From an uncultured Mycoplasmatota bacterium (GTDB lineage: Bacteria; Bacillota_I; Bacilli_A; Izemoplasmatales; Izemoplasmataceae): 64,000 nucleotides of DNA. Both the position numbers and the translations under genes were made by a program. Numbering within the stretch: the first letter of the stretch is position 1; every line of letters begins with the position of its first letter. Location of the stretch: NCBI GenBank assembly GCA_913062645.1, contig CAJXVW010000001.1, positions 682,001-746,000 of the forward strand, in the 5' to 3' direction. Under the pieces are notes generated by a model. It saw only the letters and a list, made by a program, of their open reading frames with translations, ran no database searches and had not been told where the DNA came from. Positions 2,323-41,144 of this stretch are shown here, in pieces.

Positions 2323-2350
2323 AAAAGACGAATCCTAAGATTCGTCTTTT
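2323..2350. terminator. Rho-independent terminator, probably bidirectional between convergent genes
   Basis: AAAAGACGAATC-CTAA-GATTCGTCTTTT perfect stem with flanking A/T. Confidence 0.85.
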
Positions 2351-3918: not shown

Positions 3919-3978
3919 ATTCATCACTCTTTCCTTGTAACGTATCATTGTATCATGATACGGGGGAAAACAAAAGGG

Positions 3979-8558: not shown

Positions 8559-8562
<4 letters not shown>
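8110..8562 (+). CDS. xanthine dehydrogenase-type 2Fe-2S subunit (set A)
   Basis: 'CDSSSCGVCTVLVDMKPVLSC' and 'CGFCNPALALTVYAL...LLGNLCRCTGYQ'. Confidence 0.92.
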
Positions 8563-10867
<2,305 letters not shown>

Positions 10868-10871
<4 letters not shown>

Positions 10872-11491: not shown

Positions 11492-11504
11492 AGGAGGCGA
11501 TGCC

Positions 11505-12783: not shown

Positions 12784-12791
12784 GTGATTCC

Positions 12792-16470: not shown

Positions 16471-16480
16471 GAGGTAGCCG

Positions 16481-18568
16481 ATGAACGACATATCCCGATC
16501 GATTCCCAAACTTGACAGTGTACCAAAGGCGTTCGGCAACGAACGATACGTCAACGACATTCGCTATGAGAACGCACTCTATGCGAAGACCTTGCGCAGT
16601 CCCCACGCCAAGGCACGCATCTTGCGGCGCCGTTACCCGGAACTGCCCGCGGGCTATCACATCATCGATCACACCCATGTGCCCGGTGAGAACGTCGTCA
16701 ACATCATTGCCGACGATCAGCCGGTGTTTGCGGCCGACCGAGTTACCTATTACCAAGAACCGATCCTGCTCGTGATCGGTCCTGACAAGCGTGTCGTACT
16801 AAAGCTGATGAAAGACATCCACATCGAATACGACATCGAGGTGCCGCAGTTCGAATGGACCGATTCGGTGGTCCACTATCATTTCACCAAGGGGAATCTC
16901 GCCAAGGTGAAGGAACAAGCCGACAAGGTCATTCGCCGCGAGTATCACTCCGGTTATCAGGAACAACTCTACATCGAGCCACAAGGCATGATCGGCTACC
17001 ATGATGGCAAACAGGTGATTCTCGAAGGTAGCCTGCAATGTCCCTACTATGTGAAAAACGCCCTGATTCGGACCTTGAACTGCGCGGACGACTACGTGCG
17101 CGTCCGACAAGCGACCGTTGGCGGCGCATTTGGTGGCAAAGAAGAATTTCCCTCGCTGATCGCCTGTCAACTGGCGGTCGCGATCGAAGTCATCCGCAAG
17201 CCGATTCGACTCATTTATGAGCGCGAGGAGGATGTCGAATCCACGACCAAGCGTCATCCGTCGCACATTACGATGACGGCTTACGTCAAGGACAACGAAA
17301 TTCTCGGCATCCAGAGCGAAGTCGGTCTCGACGGTGGCGCCAACATCGGCCTTAGCGGGGTCGTGCTGTCGCGCGCGTTGATCGCGACGACCGGAGTCTA
17401 CACCATCGATCATCTCGATGTCACCGGCGACGTTTACCGCACCAATACCGTGCCCAATGGCGCGTTCCGCGGCTTCGGTGCTCCGCAGATGCTGTTCGCG
17501 GTGGAAATGTTCATGCATCACGTCGCAGCGGAACTGAAGGTTGATGCGCTGGCATTTCGCCAACGATATCTGGCGAAACAAGGCGACCATACGTCAACCG
17601 GCGGAACGTTCCGAGATCCGATCATCATGCCGGAGATGCTGTCGCGCGTGCTCGATGAATCGGACTATTTGAACAAGCGCGAACGATATGCCAGCCCCGA
17701 TTCCCATCGCGGCATTGGCATGAGTTGGGTTCTGCATGGCTGCGGGTTTACCGGCAGCGGAGAAGCGACGCACATCAAAGCGCGCGTGAAATTGCACAAG
17801 CGAACAACAGACGAGGTCGAGATCCTGATTGCCGCGGTCGACATGGGACAAGGTGTCAAGACAACGATGACGAAACTCGTCGCCACGATTCTCGATGTTC
17901 CCATGTCGCAAGTGATATACGACAATCCCGACACCAACTTCGTTCCGGATTCCGGACCGACCGTCGCCAGCCGCACGATGATGATCGTCGGTGGCCTGGT
18001 GGCCCGGGCCGCACGTCGCTTGCGTGACGAGTGGAACGCCGGGGAGGACCAGTGGATTGAAGAACGCTACGTCCAGCCCGACTACATCAAGTGGGATGAA
18101 ACGACCTTCCACGGCGATGCCTATCCGGCTTATTCCTGGGGCATCAACATCGTCGAGGTGGAAGTGGATCCGGCAACCTATGAAGTCACCGTGCTGGAAA
18201 CCTGGAACATATATGACGTTGGCAAAGCCATCGACGAACAGGTCATTCTCGGCCAGGCCGACGGTGGCCAACTGCAAGGACTAGGGCTCGGTTATCTCGA
18301 AGTGATGAATCATAAACAAGGCGTGATCCAACAACGAAACGTCACCGATTACATCATTTCCACCAGTGTCGACACCCCACCGATGCACAATTATCTGATG
18401 GACAATCCCTATCCGCTTGGGCCCTATGGTGCCAAAGGGGCCGGTGAACTGACGTTGGTCGGAGGCGCACCGGCCGTCGCCCTTGCCATTGAACAGGCGA
18501 TTGGCAAAGAAATTCACGAGATTCCCGTCACCCCCGAACGGATCATGGAGTTGATGAACGATGAATGA
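16481..18568 (+). CDS. xanthine dehydrogenase-type molybdopterin-binding subunit (set B, XdhD-like)
   Basis: 'VGGAFGGKEEFPSLIACQLA', 'GAFRGFGAPQMLFAVEMF', 'AVDMGQGVKTTMTKLVA', 'GPYGAKGAGELTLVGGAPAVALAI'. Confidence 0.9.
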   Translation: MNDISRSIPKLDSVPKAFGNERYVNDIRYENALYAKTLRSPHAKARILRRRYPELPAGYHIIDHTHVPGENVVNIIADDQPVFAADRVTYYQEPILLVIGPDKRVVLKLMKDIHIEYDIEVPQFEWTDSVVHYHFTKGNLAKVKEQADKVIRREYHSGYQEQLYIEPQGMIGYHDGKQVILEGSLQCPYYVKNALIRTLNCADDYVRVRQATVGGAFGGKEEFPSLIACQLAVAIEVIRKPIRLIYEREEDVESTTKRHPSHITMTAYVKDNEILGIQSEVGLDGGANIGLSGVVLSRALIATTGVYTIDHLDVTGDVYRTNTVPNGAFRGFGAPQMLFAVEMFMHHVAAELKVDALAFRQRYLAKQGDHTSTGGTFRDPIIMPEMLSRVLDESDYLNKRERYASPDSHRGIGMSWVLHGCGFTGSGEATHIKARVKLHKRTTDEVEILIAAVDMGQGVKTTMTKLVATILDVPMSQVIYDNPDTNFVPDSGPTVASRTMMIVGGLVARAARRLRDEWNAGEDQWIEERYVQPDYIKWDETTFHGDAYPAYSWGINIVEVEVDPATYEVTVLETWNIYDVGKAIDEQVILGQADGGQLQGLGLGYLEVMNHKQGVIQQRNVTDYIISTSVDTPPMHNYLMDNPYPLGPYGAKGAGELTLVGGAPAVALAIEQAIGKEIHEIPVTPERIMELMNDE

Positions 18569-19034
18569 CATTACCTTTGAACTCAATCACGAGCAAGTGA
18601 CCATCACCGCCGATCCGTCGCTGCGGCTTCTTGACGTATTGCGTGACCGATTGCATCTGACCGGTGCCAAGGAAGGTTGCGGTGAAGGGGAATGTGGCGC
18701 GTGTTCGGTGTTGATCAACGACCAACTCGCCAATTCCTGTCTGGTGCCGCTTGCCAACGTGCACAAACAACGTGTAACAACGATCGAAGGGATTGCGACA
18801 ACCAAGGAAGGCAAGTTGCTGCAACAGGCCTACAGCAAGGAAGGTGCCGTGCAATGCGGCATCTGCACACCGGGCATGATGATGGCCTCGTATGCGCTGT
18901 TGAAAAAACACCCGCATCCGACGCGCGAACAGATCCAGATCGGGTTGTCGGGAAATCTGTGTCGGTGCACCGGATACAACATGATTTTCCGCGCGATTGA
19001 GCGAGCGGCGAAAGAAGGCGAAGGAACATGGTGA
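18561..19034 (+). CDS. xanthine dehydrogenase-type 2Fe-2S subunit (set B)
   Basis: 'CGEGECGACSVLINDQLANSCLVP' and 'CGICTPGMMMASYALL...GLSGNLCRCTGYN'. Confidence 0.92.
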   Translation: MNDITFELNHEQVTITADPSLRLLDVLRDRLHLTGAKEGCGEGECGACSVLINDQLANSCLVPLANVHKQRVTTIEGIATTKEGKLLQQAYSKEGAVQCGICTPGMMMASYALLKKHPHPTREQIQIGLSGNLCRCTGYNMIFRAIERAAKEGEGTW

Positions 19035-19876
19035 AACACATCATCCCAAATTCGCTGAAAGAAGCTCTTGATTATATGGACGGGCACTACACGACGATTG
19101 TTGCCGGCGGGACCGATCTGATGGTGCAGCGCCGCAACTGGGCGGAACTGCCGCCAACGTTCACGAGCGATCCGGTCTATGTGTTCCATCTTTCCGAACT
19201 GAATTATGTGAACGAAGATGATAAAAACGTATATATTGGAGCAGTGACACCGATGAGCGTTCTGCTCGATCATCCTGCGACACCGCAGCTTCTCAAGGAT
19301 GCCATTGCGATCATTGCCGCACCTGGTCTTCGTAACATGGCGACGATTGCCGGAAACATCGGAAATGCATCGCCGGCAGGAGACAGCCTGCCGATTTTGT
19401 ACGCACTGGATGCACTGGTACGCATTCAATCCAAATCACAAAACAGTCTGCTGCCGATAGCTCAGGTCATTCAGGGACCACGTAAGACGATTCTCGACAA
19501 CAATGAGCTGATTACGGAAATCGTCATACCCAAAGACCCCTTTACGTTCCAGATGTTTCGCAAGGTAGGGGGACGCAAAGCCGATGCCATTAGCAAAGTG
19601 TCGTTTACGGGATCGGTGCGGATCGAAGGCAAACACGTTACCGATCTTCGCATTGCATTCGGTGCGGTTGCACCAACGGTGGTCCGCGTTCGCGACATCG
19701 AAATGGAATACGAAGGAAAGACCGTCAAACAACTGCAACAACAAGTCAAGAGCTTGCAAGAAGCATACGCAACGTACATCCGACCGATTGATGATCAGCG
19801 ATCCAACAAAGAATATCGGATGAACGTTGCAATGAATCTTTTGGAGCAATTCATCAGTAGTTTGAAAGAGGAGTGA
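19028..19876 (+). CDS. xanthine dehydrogenase-type FAD-binding subunit (set B)
   Basis: 'TTIVAGGTDLMVQRRNW', 'VYIGAVTPMSVLLDHP', 'GLRNMATIAGNIGNASPAGDSLPILYALDA'. Confidence 0.9.
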   Translation: MVKHIIPNSLKEALDYMDGHYTTIVAGGTDLMVQRRNWAELPPTFTSDPVYVFHLSELNYVNEDDKNVYIGAVTPMSVLLDHPATPQLLKDAIAIIAAPGLRNMATIAGNIGNASPAGDSLPILYALDALVRIQSKSQNSLLPIAQVIQGPRKTILDNNELITEIVIPKDPFTFQMFRKVGGRKADAISKVSFTGSVRIEGKHVTDLRIAFGAVAPTVVRVRDIEMEYEGKTVKQLQQQVKSLQEAYATYIRPIDDQRSNKEYRMNVAMNLLEQFISSLKEE

Positions 19877-19880
19877 TCCG

Positions 19881-21593
19881 ATGAATCACAAACAACTGTC
19901 GGAGATCGCGCTAGCGCAGCAACCAGCCGATTTAGTCATCAAGAATGCCACCATCATCAATGTTTTCGATGCGACGACGGAACGTGCCGATATTGCTGTT
20001 CAAGACGGCATTTTTGTCGGTATTGGTCAATACCATGGAAAACAAGAAATTGATGTGAAGGGTGCGTATGTAGCTCCTGGATTCATTGATGGGCACGTGC
20101 ATATTGAATCAAGTATGTTGACCCCATCTGAATTCTCTAAACTAGTAATTCCAAAAGGTACAACAAGAGTGATTGCAGATCCTCATGAAATCGCCAATGT
20201 CAAGGGCGTCAAAGGACTTGGTTTCATGCTTAACAGCAGCATGGACACACCTTTGAATGTGCACCTGATGATTCCATCTTGCGTCCCTGCCACAACGTTT
20301 GAAACGTCTGGATCAACCGTTGATGCGGAAGACATCTACAGTCTCCGCAGACGGGAAGGCATACTTGGACTGGGTGAAGTCATGGATTATCCCAGTGTCA
20401 TACATGCCGAACAATCGATGATGAACAAATTAAGCATTATGGAAGATTATGTGATAGACGGACACGCTCCGAACGTGACTGGGAAAGAACTAAACGCCTA
20501 TCTGCTTCATCACATTCGAACGGATCATGAAAGTACCACGATTGACGAACTTCATGAGAAGGTCAAACGAGGAATGTACATTCATCTACGCGAAGGATCG
20601 CAAACCAGGAATGTCGTCGATCTCTTGCCGGCGGTCACTCCGAAAAACATTCATCGCTTGCTGTTTTGCACCGACGACAAACATCCGATGGACATCCTAG
20701 CAGAAGGACACGTCAATTACAATGTAAATCTGGCGATTGCCAACGGAGTCGATCCCATCGACGCAATCAGGATGGCAACGATCAATACCGCCAATTGCTA
20801 TCAGCTCAATCAAGTCGGTGCGATTGCACCTGGTTATGAGGCGGATTTCATCGTGTTTGACGATCTCAATGACATTCAGCCAAGCAACGTATACATCGCG
20901 GGACAACCGGTCGCACAAAACGGCCAGGTCACGTTTGAGACGCATCGGTTCGAAAGCATCCATGTCGTGGATACCGTCAAGTACAACATCGACGATATCA
21001 AGCTGGATCTTCCGTTGAAATCCGATAACGTCAAAGTCATTCAATTGATTGCCAACAATGTGACGACCAAACAAGTCATTCGCAAAGTTCAACGCAACAA
21101 CGGGCTGTATGTCAACAATCCCAACGACGACATTCTGAAGATTGCCGTCGTCGAGCGCCATCACTACACCAAAAACGTCGGTGTGGGGCTCTTGGAAGGT
21201 TATGGACTGAAAGATGGCGCCGTCGGGATGACGATTGCCCACGACTCTCATAATCTCGTGGTCGTTGGTGACAACGATGCCGACATGATGAAGGCCATCG
21301 AGGAACTCAAACGGATCCAGGGTGGGATCACCATCGTTCACAACGGGTCGATCGTCGAGAGCCTTCCGTTGGAAATCGCCGGCATCATGACCAACCAGGA
21401 CATCGACACAGTGTGCGACAAGCTGAAAAAGATGGAGCATGAAGCCCGGCAACTGGGGGTCACCAAACAAGTTGACGATCCCTTCTTGTCGCTGGCATTC
21501 ATGAGTTTGCCGGTCATCCCCGATCTGAAACTCACCGATCGCGGATTGTTTGATGTTACGACCTTCTCGCTGACCGAAATCGAGGTGGAGTGA
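19881..21593 (+). CDS. ade: adenine deaminase
   Basis: 'APGFIDGHVHIESSMLTPSEFSKLVIPKGTTRVIADPHEIANVKG', 'GHAPNVTGKELNAYL', 'FCTDDKHPMDILAEGHVNYNVNLAI', 'VERHHYTKNVGVGLLEGYGLKDGAVGMTIAHDSHNLVVVG'. Confidence 0.95.
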   Translation: MNHKQLSEIALAQQPADLVIKNATIINVFDATTERADIAVQDGIFVGIGQYHGKQEIDVKGAYVAPGFIDGHVHIESSMLTPSEFSKLVIPKGTTRVIADPHEIANVKGVKGLGFMLNSSMDTPLNVHLMIPSCVPATTFETSGSTVDAEDIYSLRRREGILGLGEVMDYPSVIHAEQSMMNKLSIMEDYVIDGHAPNVTGKELNAYLLHHIRTDHESTTIDELHEKVKRGMYIHLREGSQTRNVVDLLPAVTPKNIHRLLFCTDDKHPMDILAEGHVNYNVNLAIANGVDPIDAIRMATINTANCYQLNQVGAIAPGYEADFIVFDDLNDIQPSNVYIAGQPVAQNGQVTFETHRFESIHVVDTVKYNIDDIKLDLPLKSDNVKVIQLIANNVTTKQVIRKVQRNNGLYVNNPNDDILKIAVVERHHYTKNVGVGLLEGYGLKDGAVGMTIAHDSHNLVVVGDNDADMMKAIEELKRIQGGITIVHNGSIVESLPLEIAGIMTNQDIDTVCDKLKKMEHEARQLGVTKQVDDPFLSLAFMSLPVIPDLKLTDRGLFDVTTFSLTEIEVE

Positions 21594-22874
21594 ATGACGT
21601 ACGCAACCGGGTTGCTTTGTACCATCTGCGGCAAGACACACCCCTATCGCGATGATCTCATGACATGCCCCGATTGTAAAGAACAGGGCATTCTTGATGT
21701 TCGATACGATTACCAGCGGATGTCTGAGGTTGTCAACCGAGCCTATTTCCAGCAGAACACACTGCGCCACATGCTACGCTACCAACCGCTGATGACGATT
21801 GCATCATATGATGCTCAAACGACGCTGCAAGTTGGGTGGACACCGCTGTATCGCTCCACAAGCTTGTCCAAGGAACTCGGTCTTCCACACCTGTACTTCA
21901 AGGATGAAGGCGTCAATCCAACGGCTTCGCTCAAGGACCGCGCCAGTCTCGTTGCCTGCTTGAAAGCAATCGAAGGCGGTCATCGGACCATTTGTTGCAG
22001 TTCAACCGGCAATGCAGCATCCAGCCTCGCCGGCAATGCTGCGAAATTGAATCTGAACAGCGTCATCTTCGTTCCCGGCCGATCGCCACTCGGCAAGCAA
22101 GCCCAAATGCTCGCCTTCGGTGCCGACGTGATCCCCGTTGACGCCGATTACAATACCACCTACGAAACGTCGAAACAATTCATCGATGCCTATGGTTGGT
22201 ACAATCGCAATGCCGCGATCAATCCCCATCTGGTCGAAGGCAAGAAGACGGTGGCTTTGGAAATTGCCGAACAACTTGATTTTCAACCGATTCACGCGGT
22301 GTTTGTATCGGTGGGCGATGGGTGCACGATTTATGGCGTGTACAAAGGTTTCTTCGATCTGTGGAATCTCGGTCTCATCGAGTACATCCCCCAAATCTAT
22401 GGCGTGCAAAGCAGTGGTTGCGCTCCGTTCGTAGAAGCGTACCAAGACGATCGCGAACTGCGCCCCGTCGCGGAATCGACCCTGGCGGACAGCATCGCCG
22501 TCGGGGTCCCGCGCAATCCCGTCAAGGGGATGTGGGCGGTTACCAAATCCAACGGTCGCTACCTGGCGGTCAGCGACGAGGACATTCTAGCCGCACAGCG
22601 AGAAATGGCGGCGACCGAAGGACTGTTTTGCGAACCGGCGGGAGCCACCGGCTACGCCGGTCTGAAGCAAGCCCTGAAACAAGGATGGATCGATCGCGAT
22701 GACCGCGTGGTCGTCATCGCCACCGGCAACGGTCTTAAGGATACCAAGACGTTCCTGGCCCATGCCAATCCCCGTTCCGCCATCGATCCCGATCAACTCC
22801 ATCGACACATGCAAGCGGACGTTCCGTTTGAAACCATACTACAAGACATTGACAGAAGAGGTGAATCATCATGA
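21594..22874 (+). CDS. threonine synthase-like fold-type II PLP enzyme with N-terminal zinc ribbon
   Basis: 'CTICGKTHPYRDDLMTCPDCKEQG' Cys4; 'FKDEGVNPTASLKDRASLVACLKAIE' PLP Lys; 'CSSTGNAASSLAGNAA'. Confidence 0.85.
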   Translation: MTYATGLLCTICGKTHPYRDDLMTCPDCKEQGILDVRYDYQRMSEVVNRAYFQQNTLRHMLRYQPLMTIASYDAQTTLQVGWTPLYRSTSLSKELGLPHLYFKDEGVNPTASLKDRASLVACLKAIEGGHRTICCSSTGNAASSLAGNAAKLNLNSVIFVPGRSPLGKQAQMLAFGADVIPVDADYNTTYETSKQFIDAYGWYNRNAAINPHLVEGKKTVALEIAEQLDFQPIHAVFVSVGDGCTIYGVYKGFFDLWNLGLIEYIPQIYGVQSSGCAPFVEAYQDDRELRPVAESTLADSIAVGVPRNPVKGMWAVTKSNGRYLAVSDEDILAAQREMAATEGLFCEPAGATGYAGLKQALKQGWIDRDDRVVVIATGNGLKDTKTFLAHANPRSAIDPDQLHRHMQADVPFETILQDIDRRGESS

Positions 22875-24235
22875 ATCAGATACCATTCGGTCCGACGTAT
22901 GACGAGATGCTGGATCCGTCCAGACTCGATCCGGACCTGCGCAAACGCGCGCTTGCGGCACGAGACAACGAACTCGACCCGCTCAACTTGTTCAACATCA
23001 CGTGGAAGGACGAACGCAATCAGGTCCGCAAGATCGTTCTGCCCAAGGAACTCACCGGTGTGGAGGCCAACATCGTCGTGCTCATCGGCAAGCATTTCCC
23101 ATCGGGAAGTCACAAGGTCGGTCCCGCCTACAGCACGCTCATCGAAGGCTGTGTCGACAATGAGATCGTTCCCGGCGAACACACCATTCTCGGCCCTTCG
23201 ACGGGCAATTTCGGAATCGGTGTGTCCTACATCTGCAACCTCATGAACTACGAAGCAATCGTCATCATGCCCGACAACATGAGCAAGGAGCGGTATCAGC
23301 GCATTCAGAAATACGGCGCCAAGCTCGATCTCACGCCGGGTACCGAAAGCGACGTCATTCTGACGCTCGAACGCACCTATGAACTGAAAAAGAATCCATC
23401 GTATCGTTCGCTGGCACAGTTTGAACTGCTGCCCAACTACCGGTTCCATCGACATGTCACCGGGGAGAGTTGTGTGGAAGCCGTCAAAGGCATCGGTAAC
23501 TCCCGCATCGCAGCGTTCACAAGCGCTGTTGGCAGCGCTGGAACGATTGCCGCCGGAGATCAGATCAAGACGCATTTTCCGGAATGCAAAGTGGTGGCGT
23601 TGGAACCGTACGAATGTTCGACGCTCACCAATGGCGGTCGCGGACAACACCGCATCGAGGGCATCGGCGACAAGATGTGCACGCTCATCCACAATGTACT
23701 CAATACCGACTTCATCGCCCAGATCAAGGACGATGACACGATCAAAGCATTGAAAATCATCCACGACGGCATTGACGTGCTCGTTGAACAAGGCATTGAT
23801 CGTGACACCGCGCTGGAACTGGCCGACACCTTCGGACCAAGTGGTCTGTGCAACGTCATCGGAGCCATCAAGATGGCCAAACATCTCCGTCTCGGGGCCG
23901 ATGACAATGTCGTGACCGTTGCGACCGACGGGTTCGACCGCTATGAAAGCGTACTGGAAGATCTGGAGCAACGTTATCTCGAAACCGAAGATTTCGTCCT
24001 GCGTCGCTGGTTCCATGACATATTCCGTAAAATCGGAAACGAGGACGTGTACGATTTCCGCACGCCCGAACGGAAACAACAGCTGTTCCATCAAAAAGAA
24101 CTGGACTGGCTCAAGTTCGGTTATGACAAAGCGTATCTCGACCGCATGAAACAGCCCTCCTTCTGGGATGCCGAATACCGCAAGATCGAGTATTACAACG
24201 ACCGCATCAAAGCGCTCAGAGGAGACGGATCATGA
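22871..24235 (+). CDS. fold-type II PLP-dependent lyase/synthase-like enzyme (cysteine synthase-like)
   Basis: '[23 protein letters not shown]' PLP Lys, '[19 protein letters not shown]' phosphate loop, '[20 protein letters not shown]'. Confidence 0.8.
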
Positions 24236-30104: not shown

Positions 30105-31505
30105 TCATGAACCGAAAATCAGGGTGACGAAATCGGGATGGTCGACGAACGGATTGCGGTTTCCTTGAATGCCGAAAATCGCTTCGTTGCGGGCGCGTTC
30201 GAACGCATCTGGCAAATCGTTGTAATGCCAGGTGAGGAGGACGCTGAGTCGACCGACAAACGGTCCGTCGTTGTTGACGTTGTCGTTGAGTTCCAGATCG
30301 AGTTCCCCGCTGCCGCCTTCGTAGCGGACCGCCATGTAGAACATCATGCGGGCGACATCGCCTTTCACTTCGTCGCGCGGTTCAAAGGAATCGCCGTCCT
30401 TGTAACAATCAGTGGTCCCGCTGACGAGCGTTCCGCCTTCGTCAAAGTCGAGATTGCCGCGGGCACCGTTGACGGGAACGAGTGTCGGGCGGATGTGATG
30501 AAGGTCGGTGTAAGCCGGTCCGCCGAGATCCTCGAGATCACCGTGACTGCGGGGCCACACATGCTCGCGGTTCCAATCGGTCTGATCACCGCCATGGTTG
30601 TCCTCGTCCATGCTGGTGCCGCTGTAAAGGAGGATGACATTGTCCGGATTGTTCGGATCTTCATCGGTGATCGCGAGCGCATCCCATAACTGGGCATACG
30701 ATAAGACGGTGTGATCATCGATCAACTCGTGCAAAAATGCTTTGAGAAGTTCACCGGTGAGACCGTCGGCGCCGGCGTAATAGCCGTCGTAGATGACGGT
30801 GGTGACTTCGGCGAGCACGACAATGGTGAATTCCAGAGTGCTCGTCACGCCATCGTACGACAGTTCGGCCGTGAGTGTGACGATGGCGTCATCGTCGCCT
30901 TCACCGGGTTGTTGAACCACACCGGTATCGGACAGATAGGCCGGTTGGTCGGACAGCCAGAGGATGCTGACGCCGTCGAGGTCGACGGGCAGCGTCAAAT
31001 CGTCGGTGACTTCGATGCCGCTGGGATACATCGGATCGGTGAGGGCGTCGGTGAGCAACACCTCGACCTCGTCGACTTTGATCTGAGCAGCCGGATCGAT
31101 GGCTTCCACACATTCGCCGTCAATCAGTTCGAATCCATCGTCACAAACGGGATCGTCCGGTTCATCGTCGACGAGCTCGGGATCAAGGAGAATCGTGACG
31201 AAAAACAGTTTTGTCATGACCTTTCCATCTTGTTCGAGTGATGCCGTCAAGACCACATCGACATCGATCGCTTGTTGGATCGTGATGAAATCATCCGACA
31301 GGACATCGGGATGATTGGCCGACCAGCGAATGGTCACACCATCTTGTTCCGTCGGCAGCTGGTAGGATTCCAGTTGCTCGGGAATCGTCAGTGCGCTGCG
31401 GACCGTTTCTAGTGTCGATTCTTCCATGGTGCTTTGATTCGGATCGCATCCGATGAGCAGCAAACCGGAGAGCAGAAGCACAAAGAACAGCAGTATTCGT
31501 TTCAT
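30105..31505 (-). CDS. lipoprotein endonuclease I (EndA/NucM-like) with N-terminal bacterial Ig-like repeats
   Basis: Lipobox 'LLLSGLLLIGC'; two 'VTIRWSANHPDVLSD' / 'VSILWLSDQPAYLSD' Ig-like modules; 'DWNREHVWPRSHGDLEDLGGPAYTDLHHIRPTLVPVNGARGNLDFDEG' endonuclease I signature. Confidence 0.92.
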   Translation of the reverse strand: MKRILLFFVLLLSGLLLIGCDPNQSTMEESTLETVRSALTIPEQLESYQLPTEQDGVTIRWSANHPDVLSDDFITIQQAIDVDVVLTASLEQDGKVMTKLFFVTILLDPELVDDEPDDPVCDDGFELIDGECVEAIDPAAQIKVDEVEVLLTDALTDPMYPSGIEVTDDLTLPVDLDGVSILWLSDQPAYLSDTGVVQQPGEGDDDAIVTLTAELSYDGVTSTLEFTIVVLAEVTTVIYDGYYAGADGLTGELLKAFLHELIDDHTVLSYAQLWDALAITDEDPNNPDNVILLYSGTSMDEDNHGGDQTDWNREHVWPRSHGDLEDLGGPAYTDLHHIRPTLVPVNGARGNLDFDEGGTLVSGTTDCYKDGDSFEPRDEVKGDVARMMFYMAVRYEGGSGELDLELNDNVNNDGPFVGRLSVLLTWHYNDLPDAFERARNEAIFGIQGNRNPFVDHPDFVTLIFGS

Positions 31506-31560: not shown

Positions 31561-33108
31561 TCATTTGATGATTTTGATGTTGGTTGTTTTGGGCAGTGTC
31601 AGCCGGGGATGGCGGACGATGTAATCGACCAGCACTTCGATGACTTCCGTCTGAGTGTCGTCGATCGTCGGACAATCGCGGAGAAACTGGTATTCCCCAC
31701 CGCCACTGGCACGGTAATTGTTCATGACGACTTGGTAAGTCGCATCGGGATCAATCGGTTCGCCGTGAAGTGTGAGTTCGGTGATGCGATCGCCGCGCGG
31801 GCGTCGCAAATCGATCGTATATGCGATCGGATCGTACATGTCGTACGCGTACAGCTGTAGTTTCGGATGATTGTATTCGTCGGCGACAACGATGTCGTCG
31901 CCGTCGAGCTCGAAAAATTCGGCGGTGCGTTCAAGCGCCCGTTTCAATGTCGCGCCCGTCAATTCTTTGACAACGAGCGTGTTGGGGAAGACATAGGTCC
32001 CAATCACGTCGCGGATCGTCAGTTCCTGACGGAATCCGGACACGTGATTGCCGAGCGAACAGGACGAGATGTCGGCATTGGTCGCTTCTAGCTGAACCTG
32101 ATTGATGAAACCGATCAACGGGTGTTTCTCGATGCGGGCAGCGATCTGATCGGTGATCGTGTAGTCGGCATCCAGATGGCCGACGGGCGTGTCGAGATAG
32201 ATCTGGGTTGCGGCCTCCACGTCCTTGATCGACGCCAGGACGACGGGATCGGCGGTAACGTCTGTGACATCGTGCAAGGTGGTATCGATGGCAAACGTCC
32301 AGCCGTCGTCGAACGTGCCGACGATGTTCAACTCCATGACATGCTGGGCATTGAAACCGGGTTGGCTGTAGGTGGTGCCGAACTTGTTGCCATGGAGCAG
32401 GCGATGCTGGTGACCGGTGAGGAGAATGTCGATGTCCGGGATGTCCTTGAGGATTTTCGATCCTTGATTTTCACCGGTGTCTTCGACGTCAAGCTCGAAC
32501 GTGTCGAAGTTGCGTTCGAACCCACCATGATAGCTGACAACGATGAGATCGACGTCATTGCGAATCTGGGCGACCGTCTGTTGCAACGCTGCGAAGGCGT
32601 CCCGGATGTCGATGTCCGCGTAATGGGATGGTTGTTCCCAGTTGGGGATGTAATGCGTGGTTGCGCCGATGAACGCCACGCGCGGTCCGTTGTCGTACGT
32701 GATAATGTCGTAGGTCACACCGCGGTAGGGCGTGCCGTCGGGATGCAACAGGTTGCAGTTGAGAATCGTTGCGTCCAAGCCATCCAAAAACGCGTTCAAG
32801 TTGGCTTTGCCGTAATTGAACTCGTGGTTGCCGATGGTCACGTATTGATACCCGACGTGGTTCATGACGGTGGCCATGGGATGGATCGGCTGTCCGTCCT
32901 GTTTGGCGACGTAATACGTCAGCGGACTGCCTTGAATCGTGTCACCGGTGTCGATGCGGATCGAGTTGCCGCTTGCAATCTCATCCATCTTCGTCTTGAT
33001 GCGGGCGAGACCCATGGCGTGATTCTTCATCGTCGCATAGTCGTGGGGATGGACGTATCCATGAACGTCCGATGTGTGCAACAGTTGCAGTTGAAATCGT
33101 TTTGTCAT
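31561..33108 (-). CDS. 5'-nucleotidase / metallophosphoesterase without signal peptide
   Basis: 'LLHTSDVHGYVHPHDY', 'IDTGDTIQGSPLTYYVA', 'IGNHEFNYG', 'LTGHQHRL'; start MTKRFQLQ at 33108 with GAGGTG RBS. Confidence 0.88.
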   Translation of the reverse strand: MTKRFQLQLLHTSDVHGYVHPHDYATMKNHAMGLARIKTKMDEIASGNSIRIDTGDTIQGSPLTYYVAKQDGQPIHPMATVMNHVGYQYVTIGNHEFNYGKANLNAFLDGLDATILNCNLLHPDGTPYRGVTYDIITYDNGPRVAFIGATTHYIPNWEQPSHYADIDIRDAFAALQQTVAQIRNDVDLIVVSYHGGFERNFDTFELDVEDTGENQGSKILKDIPDIDILLTGHQHRLLHGNKFGTTYSQPGFNAQHVMELNIVGTFDDGWTFAIDTTLHDVTDVTADPVVLASIKDVEAATQIYLDTPVGHLDADYTITDQIAARIEKHPLIGFINQVQLEATNADISSCSLGNHVSGFRQELTIRDVIGTYVFPNTLVVKELTGATLKRALERTAEFFELDGDDIVVADEYNHPKLQLYAYDMYDPIAYTIDLRRPRGDRITELTLHGEPIDPDATYQVVMNNYRASGGGEYQFLRDCPTIDDTQTEVIEVLVDYIVRHPRLTLPKTTNIKIIK

Positions 33109-33162
33109 AACAAGCACCTCGTATTCATTATAGCGCAGTTGGCCGGGAAAGCCAAAGAAAAA

Positions 33163-33180
33163 AAGCCCACAAGCGGGCTT
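33163..33180 (-). terminator. Rho-independent terminator
   Basis: AAGCCC-GCTTGT-GGGCTT then T tract on the minus strand. Confidence 0.65.
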
Positions 33181-33658
33181 AGCGTTTGATCTTGCATTTG
33201 CTGTTTTGGATGGTGTACATGATCCAGATGAACCCAAGCGCCACAAACAACAGCGCGGCGATTTTCCACAGCAAGTTCGCATTGGGCAGCACGAGCGGTG
33301 TGAAGGCGATGCCGACGGCGCCCAGGAAGGCGACGACGCACGACGTGCATCCGAAGGTCAGAACACCGAGGAGGAACGACAGAAACGGGATCGCATTGGA
33401 ACCTGTCGGTTCGATGTTGGTGAGTTTGTAATTAATGATGCTGAACGTCACCATCACCGAGGTCAAGCCGGCAATGATCACATTGATCAGAATGTGCGTC
33501 GAGGTAACCAGTGCGCCGAACTCGGCGGTCATGACGCGATAGCTGATCGCGCCTTCAAAATCGAGAAACACGTACAAACTGAGAAAAAACGCGAACAGCA
33601 CGGCAAGCAGCACGCGGTACTGGCGTTGATGGAGTTCCTGGCGGATGAGTGTCAACAT
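33179..33658 (-). CDS. membrane protein of unknown function
   Basis: 159 aa, about four TM segments, 'GVLTFGCTSCVVAFLGAVGIAF'. Confidence 0.65.
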   Translation of the reverse strand: MLTLIRQELHQRQYRVLLAVLFAFFLSLYVFLDFEGAISYRVMTAEFGALVTSTHILINVIIAGLTSVMVTFSIINYKLTNIEPTGSNAIPFLSFLLGVLTFGCTSCVVAFLGAVGIAFTPLVLPNANLLWKIAALLFVALGFIWIMYTIQNSKCKIKR

Positions 33659-33780: not shown

Positions 33781-34434
33781 ATGAACGACTTCCGGAACGA
33801 CATCAAGCGTCTGCCCCGCCTGCTGCTCGGACTCGTGGCTCTTGCCACGGGCATTTTCTTTGTTCGGCTCAGTTATCTCGGACTACCGCCGTGGGGCGTC
33901 TTTCACGATGGTCTGTACCTCGTCAGCGGCATCGGATTCGGCTATCTCACCCAACTCGTCGGATTGGTCGTGCTCGTGCTCTCGATGGTGCTCTTCCGCA
34001 CCAAGATCGGCATCGGTACCGTGATGAACGTCGCCATCGTCGGGCCCATCATCGAACTGTGGGAAGCCCTTTGGCCGTTTGCTACCGATACGCTGCTCGA
34101 ACAGATTCCCGTGTTTCTGCTCGGCATGCTGCTGATGACGTTCGGCCGCAGTCTCTACATCTCCAGCGAACTCGGTCAGGGTCCGCGCGATGGCCTGTTC
34201 GTCGGAATCGCCCGCACCACACGCTTCGAAGTCAAACACATCAAACCGGCAATCGAACTGACGGTGCTCATCATCGGCTTTATCCTGGGCGGACGATTCT
34301 ACGTCGGCACGGTGCTCATCGTGCTCTTTAGCGGTTATCTTGTCCAGTGGTTTTTCAACCGCTTGGGGTTTGATCCCAAACAAGCACGACAACACTCGAT
34401 TCGATCCTATTTCCAACAAAAGGAGCCTTCCTGA
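33781..34434 (+). CDS. YczE/YyaS/YitT-family membrane protein
   Basis: 'LSYLGLPPWGVFHDGL', 'GRSLYISSELGQGPRDGLFVGIARTT'; five TM segments. Confidence 0.8.
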   Translation: MNDFRNDIKRLPRLLLGLVALATGIFFVRLSYLGLPPWGVFHDGLYLVSGIGFGYLTQLVGLVVLVLSMVLFRTKIGIGTVMNVAIVGPIIELWEALWPFATDTLLEQIPVFLLGMLLMTFGRSLYISSELGQGPRDGLFVGIARTTRFEVKHIKPAIELTVLIIGFILGGRFYVGTVLIVLFSGYLVQWFFNRLGFDPKQARQHSIRSYFQQKEPS

Positions 34435-34449
34435 GAAGGCTCCTTTTTT
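34418..34449 (+). terminator. Rho-independent terminator
   Basis: AAAAGGAGCCTTC-CTGA-GAAGGCTCCTTTT. Confidence 0.85.
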
Positions 34450-34466: not shown

Positions 34467-37400
34467 TTAGGTTGCAGGTGTGTATTCGTCGATGAACAGA
34501 ATGAAGTAATGCGTATCGTCAAGTTGCACGATGTGCAGGCCGGTCGTCATGTCGATTGTCGTGGTGCCGTCATCGAAGGTGAAGGTCACGACATGAATGG
34601 TGCTGGCGAGGAAATCGACGGTGCCGGTCGTCCAACTGTCGACGGTGATCGTGTAGCCGCCGTCGATGTACATCTGGCGCGCTTCAACGCAATCGATGCT
34701 GCGCATCTGGGTGCCGAAATACGTGTCGCACAGCGTCTGGGCGTCGATCGTCGGGTCGAGCAAGTCGACGATGAACGCGTCAATGACATCTTGTGCTTCG
34801 ATGATGCCGAGTCCCGGATAGCCGAAGGGGAACGGCAACTCTTCACCGAGCACCTGATAGGTGAAGGTGTAGATCGGTTCGGTCATGTTGGTGGTGACGT
34901 ACTGGCCGAGGTATACCGTTTGCCAGGTACTGTCGGTGAACCAGACGGTCAGTTCGGCGGAGAACATCGGCTGCAGATAGACGCCGGGACGGAAGTAGAA
35001 CTCGTTGATCGAGATGTCGTCGATGACCTTGGTGCCGGCGAGGATGCCGTTGCACGGGATGTCGAGACACAGTTCGTCGAGCGTCATGCCGCTGCCAATC
35101 CAGCCGTCGATCAATGATTCGAGGTCGGCTTGTGCATCATCGTGTAGATCGAGCGGAATCTCGTAGTAGATGACGAGATACTGGTTGCCGAGGATGTCAT
35201 AGTTTTCATCGACGCCAAGCAGGATCGTCAAGCCGTTGGACAGAGCCATTTCAACGGTGGTATTCCACTCGTCGTAGTGAACCTCGATCAACGACAGCGT
35301 CAACGATTCGTTGCGCAGCGTTTCGCGCAGACGGTTGCAGAGCCAGCTGTCCCACGGACCGAAGAAGTCGGCGCAGATCTCGGCGTCGGCAATGGTCATG
35401 TTGTTGACGGCGTTCAGGAACGCGGTGAGGAAGGTGTCGATTTCCGGAGGTGTCGGGAAGTCGTGGTCGAAGTAGATGTTGGGAACGAGGTTGTTGTTCC
35501 AGTCTTCGTAGATGTCGAACCGGACCGTCACGGTGGACGATGTGCCACTGGGATCGGTGACGGTGAGAAGCGCTTCGTATTCTTCGTAGCCGCTGCCGGC
35601 GTTGATCAGGTACACATCGCTGACGACGACCGTTACACCATCATCAAGGAGCATTTGCCGCATGCCGGGAATCCAGGTGCCGGGATACATATCGAACAAG
35701 TCATCCAGTGTCAGCGACGTGTCGAAGTAGTCGGTGAGGAAGGACGTGAAGGCCTGCGTCACGGTCGCGATGTCGTACATCGGTTCAATGTCGCCTTCCT
35801 GCCAACCCCAGATGTTGACGTAGCCGTCGAGATCGATGACGATGGCGAGGTGGAAGAACACCGTTTCGACGACACCGCCGGTGTTGTCGATGCGTTCGAC
35901 GTGGGCCGAGAACATGTGATCGCCTTGATCGTAGAATCCGACGAGTTGCAGCGAATCACCGCTCGCTCGCACCATCTGGCGCATGCCATAGCAGTCCATG
36001 AACAGATTGCCCCAGCTGTTGCAGAAGTCGTCGTCACTGATCGTCATGTCGTTGAAGTCGCCAATCAGATCGTTGAGAGCGATCTGCACGTCGGCCTGAT
36101 CGCCGTAGGTGTAGGAGAAGGGGTAGAGAAGATCGAACTTCAGTTGATCGTTTTCATCGTAGAAGAACTTCACTTCATACGAAATGTAATATGCAATCGA
36201 ATCGCTGTTGGCGTACGTTGCGAACTCGAGGTAGTTGGGTTCGTAATGGAAATCGTAGAACCACCAGTACAGATCGTAACCATCGGCGTGAACGTCGGTA
36301 TAGAGCGCTACGCAGTTGTCCTGCGTGTCGACTCCGACGTACATCTGACAGAACGTGGTGGCGTCGAGCGAACCATCGTTGAAATCGGTTTGGAAGTTGT
36401 ACAGGTGGGCTTCCTTGTCCGCCATCGGGATGCCGTCGCCCGCTTCGAAGATGTGAGCGCGGATCGTCCGGTCGGCTTGGAAATGGAGCGTCACGTACAG
36501 GTAATACCATTCGACTGAGAGGTCGGTGTACTCGAGTTCGAACTCGAACTCCCAGTGATCGCCCATGTCGTTGGCATGAACGTTGATGATCGTCGCACCG
36601 GTGTCCCGGATGTATTGGAGTGCCGCGGCACAGGCGAACGAATCTTCGATGTAGAAGAGTGCGTTGCAGATGTCGTCGATGTTGTCGCCGTTGTTCAACC
36701 CCTGGACAATTTGTCCAAGGAATGCTTCGGCGTCGTTCCAGGTGACTGGGTCGTCGGGACCGAGTTCACTGGAGAACTCGGCGCGTAGAACATTGTTATC
36801 ATCCCAGAAGAAGACCAGGTCCCAAGAGTGATATTCGATGTTGCCACCGGGGAAGGTGAACTCCAGTTCGAGTTCCCAGTAATCCATCATGTCATAGAGC
36901 ATGAACGGTGCGACCTGTTCGCCATTGAGGAGCCAGTGGCTGAGTTCTTCGGTGCAACGCTGATAACTGTCGGCACCGAAGAAGGTGGCGCAGATGTCCT
37001 CGGTGCCAGCGCCGGAGGCAATGGTGCTGAAGAGCTGTCCGGCCCAATCCCATGCGTCATCGTAATAAATGCCGTCTTCGGGATACCACAGTTCGGCTAG
37101 CAACGTACCGGATTCGTCATGGAACAGCACTTCGAAGTAATGACGGGTGCCGTCGGTCATTTCGAACTCGAACGTGTAGTTGCCGTACATTTCGGTGAGC
37201 CACCAGTGGGTGATCGTCAGACCGTTGTCGATCGACGACTGACGCCATTCGTAGGCAATCCAATGGCTGTTGGGATGCAGGAGCTGAGTGGCAAAGTCAT
37301 CGTTGGTCGTAAACGGATCGTTGAACATGGATACGAAGTCGTCGATGTATGTTTGAGCGGTGTCGAAGTCGATTCGCGGACCCATGCTGGCAAAGGTCAT

Positions 37401-40400
37401 CCACAGACTGTTGAACTCGTCGTAGAAGAACTTGACGTCGAACTCTTCGGGATAGAGTTCGTTGTTCTGTTCAAACTCGATGTAGACGTGGAACATGCCG
37501 TCCATGATCGGGAAGAAACTGATCAACGTGACATTGTAGGTGCCGCCGACATATGTGGCGAAGCGGTCGATGCACGGTTGTTGATTGGCCGGATCGAAGT
37601 ACGTCGCACAGATGGAATCGATTGTCCATCCCGCCTGGCGGAATGTTTCGGTGAACTGCTCGACGTGGTTGCGGAAGTCCTCGTCACCACCGTGATAGGG
37701 GTCGCCGGTGATGGAAATCTTGAGGTTGTCCGAGGCGTCGTAATAGAACTCGACGTAGACTTCCTCGTGCCATTCGTCGGGGGCTGCCGGATCGAAGTAG
37801 AAGTGACGGATCACGGCTTTGTACTGGCCACTGGGGAGCGGGTAGAACTCGACGAGTTCCATGATGTAGTTGAAATCATGGTTGTCGCGCTTGTCGATGC
37901 ACTCGAGTGCTTCGTCGCCGCTGAAGAACAAGTTGCAGACGTCGATCGAGGACAGGCTCGCATCATCGTATTGCGAGATGAAGTCGGTGAAGAACTGGCG
38001 ATAGTCGTTGAACTCCGCTTGATCGACGAGGAAATGAATCTTGATGTTGCCGAATTCATCTTCGTAGAACAGGATGTAATCTTCTTGGACGAACTGTTCG
38101 TTGGATGAAATCGCGTCGACTTGCATGCTGTAGTACCAGACGCCGTCCATCAGCGGATGGAGATCCAGGAGCATGTAGGTGAAGTTGGCGATGCCGGTGC
38201 TGCGTCCGGCGAGACATTCGGCGACGATGTCGCCTTCGAAGTACATGTTGCAGAAGTCGTCGTCGGTGATCGACGGGTCTTGCAGATCGGCGATGTATTG
38301 CTCCATGTAATCACGGAAGAACATCATCGGATCCTGCTCGAACTTCATCTTCCAATTGTTGTTCATGTCCTGGAAGAAGGTCGCGATCATCCGTTTGCTG
38401 TATTCGTCGGTGCCGTTGTTGTAGATCAGCTCGACACCATAACTGCCATCACCATGCGGCCAGAATCCGCCGAGGGTGATCGCATAGCTGAAGTCGTAAT
38501 TGTTGTCGCGTTCGTCGATGCAGCCGTCTTGATCCTCGGGATCGAAGAACTTGCCACAGACATCGGCGCTCGGAATGCTGGAATCCTGGAACTCGGCGAT
38601 CAGATCGAGCACGAGTTGCTTGTAGATGTCGATGTTCGGATCAACGTCCGCCCACTTCAGTTTCAAGTTGCCGGTATTGTCCCACACGAACTCGACGGCT
38701 TGTGTGATCGTTTCACTGCTGGTTCCATCGTAGATTTCGGCTTCAAAGACCCAGTATCCGAACTCGTCGCGATATAGGTCAAGCAACGTGGCGGTGCCGC
38801 CGTTGCTGATGAACAGATCGCGTTCGTCGACGCATTCGCTGGTCGCGCCTTCGAGCAGGAAGGTGTCGCAGACCGTGGTGCTGTCGAGCGCACTGTTCTG
38901 ATAATCTTCCATGAATTGCAGGAGGAACTGATAATATTGATCGTATTCGCCGTCACCATCGCGCATGACGATTTTCAGATTGCCATCGATGTCGTAGATA
39001 AACTCGATCGGTTGCACTATCGTGTCGACGTTGGTGCCGTCGTTCAACTCCAGTTTGAATTCCCATGTGACGTCGTCCAGCTGATAGAATTCCATCAGCG
39101 TTGCCGTGATGCCGTCGGCCAGGAACTGGTCGCGGTCGGCTGCGCATTGATCGAAATCTTCATTGTCGAGATACGTGGTGCAGACCCACATGCTGTCGAT
39201 CGAATCGTCCTGATAGTCGGCGATGAAGTCTTGAACGAAGTCATAGTAGACTTGGTACATGTCGCCGTCGTCGCCCATTTTGAGTTTGAGATCGTTGTTG
39301 TTGTCATAGACGAAATCGACCTTGACGTGTTCGTCGTAAATGTTACCTCCCTCGTCGAACCGGACGACAAAGATCCACTGGTCGTTGTCATCGATGTACA
39401 GATCAAGCAGTTCGACGCTGTTGGGTTCGTTGACGAACTCGTCGCGCTCATCGGCGCATCCTTGCGGGTCGTCATCGATGAGGTACTGGGAACAGACGGT
39501 GTAGGAATCGAGTGCACTGTCCTGGTAATCAGCGATGAAGTCACTCAGCAGTTGATAGTAGGTGTCGTACAACGGATCTTGCGGTTCGCTGTCCCACAAG
39601 GCCCGCAGCTCGTCGTCTTCGTTGTAGACGAATACCACGACTTGGGTTTCGACGGTTACATCGGTACCATCGTTGATCTCCAGATCGAAAGACCATTCCT
39701 GTAACGCGTCATCGAACTTGAGGTCGATGAACGTCAGCGTGGTGCCGCTGGCGAGGAAGTCGTCACGTTCGGCGGCACATGCGGCGGAGTCGTCCGTTTG
39801 GAAGTACGTGTCGCAGAAGACCGCACTGTCGATGGTCGGGTTGTCGTAGTCTTCTACCAATTCCACCAGGAATGCGCGGTAGATGTCGTATTCCGAAGGT
39901 TCTCCGCTGTCCGGATCAATCTGTATCTTCAGTTCACCCATGATGTTGTGGAACCAGGCTTCAAACTGGATGGTGCCCTGACTGATGCCGTCCACCAACA
40001 TGTTGACCGTCACCAGATAATGGTCTTCGTAAGGCTCGAGGGATACGACTTCTTGGGTGTAGCTGCCTTCCTCTTTCTGTTCGTATCCGTCCATGCAGAC
40101 ATCGTATTGATCATCCACGAAGTACTCGTTGCAGACGTCCTCGGCTGTGCGGTCGGATCGGAAGAAGTCGTCAAACAGATCGTTCAGGAACGCCAGGAAG
40201 TCGGCTTCCGTGAAGACCATTTCGGCGTATTGTTCGATAACGTGCAGTTGCAACACGGCGCTCGTGTCGTAGAACACGTCGAGCGTATAGGCGACCGTGC
40301 CACTGCCGTACATGTCGTCGTCCCAGTTGGCGGATCCGATGAACTGGGAGCCGTCGGCAACGAGACTGATGTACTCGAAGGTCAGGTTGTTGGCGAGATT

Positions 40401-41045
40401 TTCCTCGCGGTCGCCCTGACATTGCGTGATGTCGTCATCGATGTTGTACGTTGCGCAAATCGTGGCGGAGTCAATCGCCGGATTGGTGTAGTCATTCAAA
40501 AACTGCTGGAACAACGCCGTGGCGTCTTCCAACGTGACCGTCAAGGTCGTCGGATCGGTCGTTTCGACCTCGTAGTCCCAGAAGTTGATGTACATGATGC
40601 CTTCGACGTAGGTAAGACCGATTTCGAAGGTGTAGCTGGTCAGACCGTCGGGACTGACGATGACCAATTCGTAGATGTCTTGCGTGGAGAGCGACGGTTG
40701 TTTCGTCACTCCTTCAATCGTCCAGCCTTCGAGATCCTCGGGGATCAGTTCGGAGCGGCTGGCGCGGCATTCGTCGAGCAACGGAATGTTGGTCACGGAA
40801 AAATAGTCGTCGCAGAATGTCGTGTTGGTGGTATCAGCGTATTCGGCGAGAATCGTGTTGAACACGTTGATGACCGCGTCTTCTTGCAGTTCGCCGACCG
40901 ACTCGCCCTGGCAGATATCCGCCTCGGGGTTGTCACGGCAATATTGTTCACTGATTTCCTCGACAACTTCCGGCGAGAACATGTCGCACCCCGCCATCGC
41001 GAAGGCACCGAGAAACACGGTGAACAGTAACAACAGTCGTTTCAT
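34467..41045 (-). CDS. giant (2192 aa) secreted lipoprotein built of about 20 degenerate ~107-aa repeats
   Basis: Lipobox 'MKRLLLLFTVFLGAFAMAGC'; recurrent unit 'YxxFlxDFixDYqDsalDsxxVCxxYfxxddxxxCxxeRdxF...xLlxfyxxxdgxwxFxxelxdgtxxexxxxvxFxydxxgnLklxm'; no frame break over 6.6 kb. Confidence 0.9.
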   Translation of the reverse strand: MKRLLLLFTVFLGAFAMAGCDMFSPEVVEEISEQYCRDNPEADICQGESVGELQEDAVINVFNTILAEYADTTNTTFCDDYFSVTNIPLLDECRASRSELIPEDLEGWTIEGVTKQPSLSTQDIYELVIVSPDGLTSYTFEIGLTYVEGIMYINFWDYEVETTDPTTLTVTLEDATALFQQFLNDYTNPAIDSATICATYNIDDDITQCQGDREENLANNLTFEYISLVADGSQFIGSANWDDDMYGSGTVAYTLDVFYDTSAVLQLHVIEQYAEMVFTEADFLAFLNDLFDDFFRSDRTAEDVCNEYFVDDQYDVCMDGYEQKEEGSYTQEVVSLEPYEDHYLVTVNMLVDGISQGTIQFEAWFHNIMGELKIQIDPDSGEPSEYDIYRAFLVELVEDYDNPTIDSAVFCDTYFQTDDSAACAAERDDFLASGTTLTFIDLKFDDALQEWSFDLEINDGTDVTVETQVVVFVYNEDDELRALWDSEPQDPLYDTYYQLLSDFIADYQDSALDSYTVCSQYLIDDDPQGCADERDEFVNEPNSVELLDLYIDDNDQWIFVVRFDEGGNIYDEHVKVDFVYDNNNDLKLKMGDDGDMYQVYYDFVQDFIADYQDDSIDSMWVCTTYLDNEDFDQCAADRDQFLADGITATLMEFYQLDDVTWEFKLELNDGTNVDTIVQPIEFIYDIDGNLKIVMRDGDGEYDQYYQFLLQFMEDYQNSALDSTTVCDTFLLEGATSECVDERDLFISNGGTATLLDLYRDEFGYWVFEAEIYDGTSSETITQAVEFVWDNTGNLKLKWADVDPNIDIYKQLVLDLIAEFQDSSIPSADVCGKFFDPEDQDGCIDERDNNYDFSYAITLGGFWPHGDGSYGVELIYNNGTDEYSKRMIATFFQDMNNNWKMKFEQDPMMFFRDYMEQYIADLQDPSITDDDFCNMYFEGDIVAECLAGRSTGIANFTYMLLDLHPLMDGVWYYSMQVDAISSNEQFVQEDYILFYEDEFGNIKIHFLVDQAEFNDYRQFFTDFISQYDDASLSSIDVCNLFFSGDEALECIDKRDNHDFNYIMELVEFYPLPSGQYKAVIRHFYFDPAAPDEWHEEVYVEFYYDASDNLKISITGDPYHGGDEDFRNHVEQFTETFRQAGWTIDSICATYFDPANQQPCIDRFATYVGGTYNVTLISFFPIMDGMFHVYIEFEQNNELYPEEFDVKFFYDEFNSLWMTFASMGPRIDFDTAQTYIDDFVSMFNDPFTTNDDFATQLLHPNSHWIAYEWRQSSIDNGLTITHWWLTEMYGNYTFEFEMTDGTRHYFEVLFHDESGTLLAELWYPEDGIYYDDAWDWAGQLFSTIASGAGTEDICATFFGADSYQRCTEELSHWLLNGEQVAPFMLYDMMDYWELELEFTFPGGNIEYHSWDLVFFWDDNNVLRAEFSSELGPDDPVTWNDAEAFLGQIVQGLNNGDNIDDICNALFYIEDSFACAAALQYIRDTGATIINVHANDMGDHWEFEFELEYTDLSVEWYYLYVTLHFQADRTIRAHIFEAGDGIPMADKEAHLYNFQTDFNDGSLDATTFCQMYVGVDTQDNCVALYTDVHADGYDLYWWFYDFHYEPNYLEFATYANSDSIAYYISYEVKFFYDENDQLKFDLLYPFSYTYGDQADVQIALNDLIGDFNDMTISDDDFCNSWGNLFMDCYGMRQMVRASGDSLQLVGFYDQGDHMFSAHVERIDNTGGVVETVFFHLAIVIDLDGYVNIWGWQEGDIEPMYDIATVTQAFTSFLTDYFDTSLTLDDLFDMYPGTWIPGMRQMLLDDGVTVVVSDVYLINAGSGYEEYEALLTVTDPSGTSSTVTVRFDIYEDWNNNLVPNIYFDHDFPTPPEIDTFLTAFLNAVNNMTIADAEICADFFGPWDSWLCNRLRETLRNESLTLSLIEVHYDEWNTTVEMALSNGLTILLGVDENYDILGNQYLVIYYEIPLDLHDDAQADLESLIDGWIGSGMTLDELCLDIPCNGILAGTKVIDDISINEFYFRPGVYLQPMFSAELTVWFTDSTWQTVYLGQYVTTNMTEPIYTFTYQVLGEELPFPFGYPGLGIIEAQDVIDAFIVDLLDPTIDAQTLCDTYFGTQMRSIDCVEARQMYIDGGYTITVDSWTTGTVDFLASTIHVVTFTFDDGTTTIDMTTGLHIVQLDDTHYFILFIDEYTPAT
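34470..40880 (-). repeat. protein-level tandem repeat array, about 20 units of ~320 nt, diverged at DNA level
   Basis: Manual parsing gives 20 units; C-x11-C in 14, variant spacing in 4 (x14, x9, x4, x12), both cysteines absent in 2. Confidence 0.8.
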
Positions 41046-41144
41046 TAGAATCCTCCCATTCTATTCTTTATACTTCGATTATACCGCTCGTGCGCGCGGA
41101 ACTTATGAATAAAATGTGAATTATGCTATTTTTTTTGACAAAAA

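Follow-up and report, generated by a model that had tools for sequence, protein, structure and literature searches.

A lipid-anchored array of 20 NTF2-like domains, and its family, in wall-less seafloor-sediment bacteria

What might a wall-less bacterium build from a chain of 20 small, related domains tethered to its membrane? The question is raised by a 64,000-nucleotide stretch of DNA (hereafter the window; positions 682,001 to 746,000 of contig CAJXVW010000001.1) from an uncultured Mycoplasmatota bacterium. Its minus strand holds an open reading frame (ORF; 41045 to 34467, including the stop codon) for a protein of 2192 amino acids (aa), here called the array protein. An earlier note, made from the sequence alone and giving no strand, had described this protein as a lipoprotein of about 20 repeats in which no named family was recognised, and the description holds: the ORF, an AMAGC lipobox (aa 16-20) and, after a cysteine-containing linker, 20 units of 102-113 aa were all found. 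By predicted fold the units are NTF2-like, relatives occur throughout one lineage of sediment bacteria, and the protein probably serves at the cell surface.

Repeat architecture and unit fold

The repeat architecture is close to established. The periodicity exceeds chance, with peaks in the BLOSUM62 autocorrelation at lags of 104 (z = 9.0) and 208 (z = 7.3), compared with a largest value of 4.3 over 200 shuffles. A profile of 19 units recovers those units at E-values of 1e-18 to 1e-34; as these were themselves in the profile, independent support comes from matches in other genomes, with E-values down to 3.5e-24. Repeat slippage at the DNA level was rejected, the gene containing no tandem DNA repeats beyond short ones of low score. 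Neither the whole protein, nor 19 of its units, nor 124 units of the wider family have a convincing match in Pfam, NCBIfam or PDB sequences: scans of the units against Pfam and NCBIfam returned only scattered weak matches of one or two members to unrelated families, and the PDB sequence searches returned matches at chance level only.

The N-terminus carries a signal peptide with a lipobox that ends in Cys20, as in bacterial lipoproteins. In 15 family members Met1 and Cys20 are invariant and Lys2 is nearly so. The anchor module that follows, CDMFSPEVVEEISEQYCRDNPEADICQGES (aa 20-49), is part of an N-terminal module common to most array proteins, 15 of which share invariant cysteines at positions 20, 36, 45, 78 and 93; Cys36 and Cys45 possibly form a further disulfide. 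As a complete set, the N-termini were too divergent to align, and those of six close members served as the query alignment.

The fold of the unit, known from a model, is likewise close to established. AlphaFold2 predicted U06 from the 124-row family alignment (A5) with a predicted local distance difference test score (pLDDT) of 96.9 and a predicted template modelling score (pTM) of 0.88. Three helices (residues 2-17, 24-31 and 37-49) precede four strands (53-61, 66-74, 79-90 and 96-100), one fewer than the five or so that had been read from the sequence. The best Foldseek match in the PDB is a computationally designed binder (5iep; template modelling score (TM) 0.68, E = 9e-4), followed mostly by the PARC6/ARC6 domain, ketosteroid isomerases and other NTF2-like proteins; TM-scores of 0.4-0.68 show the fold class, not close kinship. 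Viral structures were rejected as relatives, with no match at E <= 0.001. Thus, the model places the units in the NTF2-like superfamily, with helices packed on a curved antiparallel beta-sheet, and what had been only a guess at this fold proved apt. The proposed beads-on-a-string arrangement fared equally well: a model of U05 to U07, for which the alignment was built from non-overlapping stretches, shows separate domains on short linkers (pLDDT 92, pTM 0.57). The relative orientation of the units is therefore not fixed in the prediction.

Distribution, synteny and divergence

The occurrence of the array throughout a bacterial family, and its conserved locus, are also close to established. The genome search that had been suggested found relatives, all of them in the same family: a unit profile (A1) matched 13 of 49 genomes of that family but, elsewhere in the order, none of 41 genomes, and the A5 profile matched eight of 395 genomes drawn from the class, again all in the family. 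Iterated hidden Markov model searches of the relatives' loci collected 206 units in 21 proteins. Named records with relatives, found with the N-termini of six close members, are labelled Candidatus Izemoplasma, Candidatus Izimaplasma or Mycoplasmatota, with one MAG labelled as Bacillales, and the lineage consists of Candidatus Izemoplasma-type bacteria of seep sediments. With the full-length protein as the query, no relatives were found among named genomes, because the repeats diverge too fast. One genome (G046) appears to be that of a wall-less strain in culture, Xianfuyuplasma coldseepsis zrk13 (PMC8397711), and appears to carry an ortholog of 2101 aa, counted from its ATG, with 18 detected units.

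The genome of the window holds three further array proteins (Table 1), and unit copy number varies among array proteins generally. Elsewhere in the family, two arrays (L029 and L026) are fused to Bact_surface_Ig-like domains; a third such fusion (L031) is below threshold. Moreover, there is a relative with a single unit: a 127-aa protein (L076:2688-3071) with an N-terminal membrane helix and an exact C-x11-C pair. It was matched in 11 of 90 genomes, all of the same family, including four (G012, G013, G017 and G028) without an array match at E <= 0.001. The C-x11-C pair is kept in nine of nine aligned single-unit sequences, and the single-unit profile aligns to A5 with an hhalign probability of 94.5% (E = 8e-8). 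On this comparison of sequences, the single-unit, membrane-anchored protein is a plausible ancestral form of the arrays.

On one side the array is flanked by genes for an aminotransferase, an M19 dipeptidase, a hexapeptide protein and a KamA-like enzyme, and on the other by a convergent membrane protein gene and then by genes for a 5'-nucleotidase and an endonuclease I lipoprotein. This arrangement is kept, in whole or in part, in at least five relatives (zrk13, L038, L040/L021, L022 and L041). When the window is compared with zrk13, one-to-one best matches link units at both ends of the array (U01-U01, U02-U02, U12-U12, U13-U13, U15-U14, U16-U15, U17-U16, U18-U17 and U20-U18, with the window named first), and the central units U04-U07 resemble one another most closely. 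Identity to zrk13 is 56% for U01, 51% for U03 and 22-38% for most other units; neighbouring genes are 51-81% identical. These alignments indicate that the repeats diverge fast beside a conserved anchor module. The lineage-wide family, the synteny, the additional arrays and the single-domain relative, as well as the calcium-loop variants described below, had all escaped the earlier note, whose interpretation is supported in part.

Probable surface role and the case for ligand binding

The array protein is strongly acidic. At pH 7 each unit has a net charge of -12 to -25 and the mature protein one of approximately -358. Aspartate and glutamate make up 15-24% of array proteins and lysine and arginine mostly 2-8%, compared with about 13% and 10% in other proteins of the window; the ordinary composition of the latter rules out salt-in halophily as the source of this acidity. 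The most conserved unit positions are core aromatics (Y17, Y31, F32 and W/F67) together with D16, D19 and R44, and no conserved, catalytic-looking set of residues was seen in the units. The protein, which presumably faces outward from its lipid anchor, is probably a surface stalk, coat or adhesin; the anchor, the signal peptide, the Ig-like fusions, the acidity, the variable copy number and the fast divergence all favour such a role.

A different function, which we consider unlikely, is that of a multivalent binder, in which each unit would use its cone-shaped pocket to bind a sediment-derived small molecule or peptide and pass it to uptake systems. These bacteria live on extracellular DNA (PMC8397711), and genes for a 5'-nucleotidase and an endonuclease I lipoprotein lie near the array in the window, zrk13 and L038, as does the endonuclease gene in L041; however, the convergent gene stands between the array and the nuclease genes. 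The conserved positions are mainly those of a bulky aromatic core and include no conserved histidine or obvious binding set. Nucleic acids are disfavoured as ligands by the net charge, which also weakens the earlier suggestion of a DNA-binding scaffold.

The cysteine pair and calcium-type loops

The tally of cysteines given in the earlier note proved exact: 14 units have C-x11-C, four have other spacings and two have no cysteine (Table 1). The 39 cysteines of the protein comprise one in the lipobox, two in the linker and 36 in 18 units. In the U06 model, the pair consists of C28 on helix 2 and C40 on helix 3. That the two cysteines behave as a unit is close to established: among the 124 units of A5, 82 have both, 42 have neither and none has one, and all 206 units include 151 with two cysteines, 50 with none, one with a single cysteine, two with three and two with four. 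In the cysteine-free units, phenylalanine predominates at the second position (23 of 44) and alanine is the commonest residue at the first (13). The state changes four times on a tree of 124 units and 22 times on one of 204 units, both trees including the cysteine columns and units that are not independent. As the units share ancestry, the Fisher p-value of 4e-34 for the pair is not used as a claim of significance. Sequence and model are most simply read as a disulfide that would join helix 2 to helix 3.

It is improbable, though the organism is a strict anaerobe and no extracytoplasmic oxidase was identified in six genomes (G000, the genome of the window; G046; G047; G018; G012; G028), that the cysteines of this genuine repeat protein are free thiols or metal ligands. 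They are gained and lost as a pair, no third or fourth conserved ligand accompanies them, and their replacement by phenylalanine and alanine fits a contact in a packed core.

Loops of the DxDxDG type, resembling those of EF-hand and TSP3 repeats, occur between or within units of five array proteins (L007, L024, L028, L032 and L034). By reading of the sequences, some of those in L028, L032 and L034 sit in the loop between helices 2 and 3. An RKRPGR motif is common to some units of L007, L024, L028 and L032. It has been considered that the array is a calcium-responsive adhesin, in which acidic units and such loops in the paralogs would stiffen the stalk upon calcium binding. The loops themselves and the acidity of the chain throughout speak for this idea, which is nevertheless quite improbable: the array protein of the window has no DxDxDG loop, and L007 matches the Pfam metal motif only below the cut-off. 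A tandem iota-class carbonic anhydrase, a known multi-domain NTF2-like enzyme and the best PDB match of the three-unit model, can practically be discounted on present sequences, as that match aligns poorly along its length (TM 0.19) and the HHSS consensus (PMC8425729) is absent from all array proteins.

Proposed model

In the proposed model, the conserved N-terminal module would tether the protein to the membrane, from which 20 small NTF2-like domains, joined by short linkers, would extend away from the cell as a flexible and very acidic string. Most domains would be braced by one disulfide between helices 2 and 3, whose place would be taken elsewhere by a hydrophobic pair or, in certain paralogs, by an EF-hand-like calcium loop. 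The anchor end would be retained, and the units would change quickly in number and sequence. As the cells have no peptidoglycan wall, such stalks would most likely act as a protein coat, an adhesin or both. A more specific history is possible and is put forward tentatively: a small membrane-anchored NTF2-like protein may have been recruited, multiplied to up to 20 copies and built into a surface coat, with disulfide, hydrophobic and calcium cross-links swapped at one position in each bead. If so, the coat would stand in for a wall and would be made from a fold that is not known to form long surface stalks.

Several observations weigh against the coat model and its disulfides. Only 13 of the 49 genomes of its family were found to have the array, which therefore is not essential for living in this way. 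The all-or-none pattern of the cysteines is uncorrected for phylogeny, and the cysteine-free units partly form a clade of their own. Moreover, no VKOR or DsbD-type partner that could serve disulfide formation in a strict anaerobe was found in the six genomes named above; DsbA-like matches occur in four of them, and those of the window's genome and zrk13 lack a signal peptide and look cytosolic.

Gene organisation and surroundings

The array gene probably has its own promoter region. A ribosome-binding site, read directly, precedes its ATG, and a TATAAT hexamer lies at 41083-41078; a consensus promoter scan listed no full promoter upstream. Terminator-like hairpins lie upstream of the gene (41166-41151) and beyond its end (Table 1), in a region where the frequency of terminator-like sites is not above the shuffle level.

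Table 1. Features of the array gene in the window, and further array proteins encoded in the same genome
Feature	Location	Strand	Remarks
Shine-Dalgarno-like gggagga	41051..41057	-	shortly before ATG; read directly
Lipoprotein signal peptide, lipobox AMAG/C	40989..41045	-	from sequence; lipid Cys = aa 20
N-terminal anchor module	40899..40988	-	aa 20-49; C20, C36, C45 invariant in 15 family proteins
U01	40560..40898	-	aa 50-162; C-x14-C; most conserved unit, 56% to zrk13
U02	40221..40559	-	C-x11-C
U03	39903..40220	-	C-x11-C
U04	39579..39902	-	C-x11-C
U05	39264..39578	-	C-x11-C; in three-unit model
U06	38955..39263	-	C-x11-C; modelled alone, NTF2-like fold
U07	38643..38954	-	C-x11-C; in three-unit model
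U08	38331..38642	-	C-x11-C
U09	38022..38330	-	C-x11-C
U10	37686..38021	-	C-x11-C
U11	37374..37685	-	C-x11-C
U12	37062..37373	-	no Cys; best zrk13 match U12 also Cys-free
U13	36747..37061	-	C-x11-C
U14	36432..36746	-	C-x11-C
U15	36102..36431	-	C-x11-C
U16	35781..36101	-	C-x9-C
U17	35445..35780	-	no Cys; best zrk13 match U16 also Cys-free
U18	35139..35444	-	C-x11-C
U19	34809..35138	-	C-x4-C; most divergent, missed by iterated profile
U20	34470..34808	-	C-x12-C; C-terminal, 38% to last zrk13 unit
Symmetric 13-pair terminator-like hairpin	34418..34447	.	between array gene and convergent membrane gene
Paralog	L006:4844-7552		902 aa, 8 units
Paralog	L007:5991-9836		1281 aa, 11 units
Paralog	L037:5228-6037		269 aa, 2 units, transmembrane anchor

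Elsewhere in the window, at 30108-31505, 31564-33282 and 2341-3948, are genes for an endonuclease I lipoprotein with an atrophied Ig domain and for two 5'-nucleotidase-type proteins, one of them a lipoprotein. A purine-catabolism-type cluster (8496-24232) encodes two molybdopterin hydroxylase large subunits, [2Fe-2S] and FAD subunits, an XdhC-like protein, an adenine deaminase and a DHOD-like ferredoxin protein; it fits a life of feeding on nucleic acids. The G+C content of the window is 54%, compared with 28-41% in the relatives' loci (L009-L043), a large shift for a single family or genus. A 1387-aa open frame (L037:10-4173), the start of which reads as Ig-like repeat sequence, lies close to the two-unit paralog and to genes resembling those for polysaccharide export.

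Comparison with known systems

An unnamed protein family is thereby defined in wall-less seafloor-sediment bacteria; it comprises syntenic orthologs, array paralogs and a single-domain relative that is likely ancestral. Relative to the profile libraries and the literature covered, which excludes most subscription papers, the family itself is new, as are the protein's length, its cysteine pair and its lipid anchor. An ortholog apparently present in one cultured strain makes the surface of a free-living wall-less cell a testable question; in addition, the occurrence of units that have the cysteine pair, units that lack it and calcium-type loops at the same place is useful for studying how cross-links change.

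The homologous single-unit membrane protein of the same lineage, with its orthologs, shares the unit and its C-x11-C pair but has one unit, a transmembrane anchor and no lipobox. Lipoprotein_17 (PF04200), which forms tandem domains of about 80-100 aa in lipoproteins of wall-less bacteria, was suggested by weak matches and rejected, with an hhalign probability of 1.1% versus 99.2% for the positive control; the genome of the window has no PF04200 match. TcpC and VirB8-like conjugation proteins also place two NTF2-like domains in series outside the membrane; in contrast, no conjugation genes were seen beside the array, and the TcpC profile (PF12642) has no match in the window's genome or zrk13. 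The NTF2-like superfamily at large (SnoaL/ketosteroid isomerase, the ARC6/PARC6 IMS domain, DUF4878 and relatives) resembles the units in fold, by model and Foldseek, and includes extracellular lipid-anchored proteins. The array units differ in having no Pfam or NCBIfam match above chance, approximately 103 aa with four strands, a cysteine pair between helices 2 and 3, and 20 copies per chain. The iota-carbonic anhydrases (COG4337) have up to five NTF2-like domains in tandem (PMC8425729). The array lacks their HHSS motif and has a lipid anchor, a cysteine pair and far more and shorter units. A series known to reach five domains extends here to 20 in one chain.

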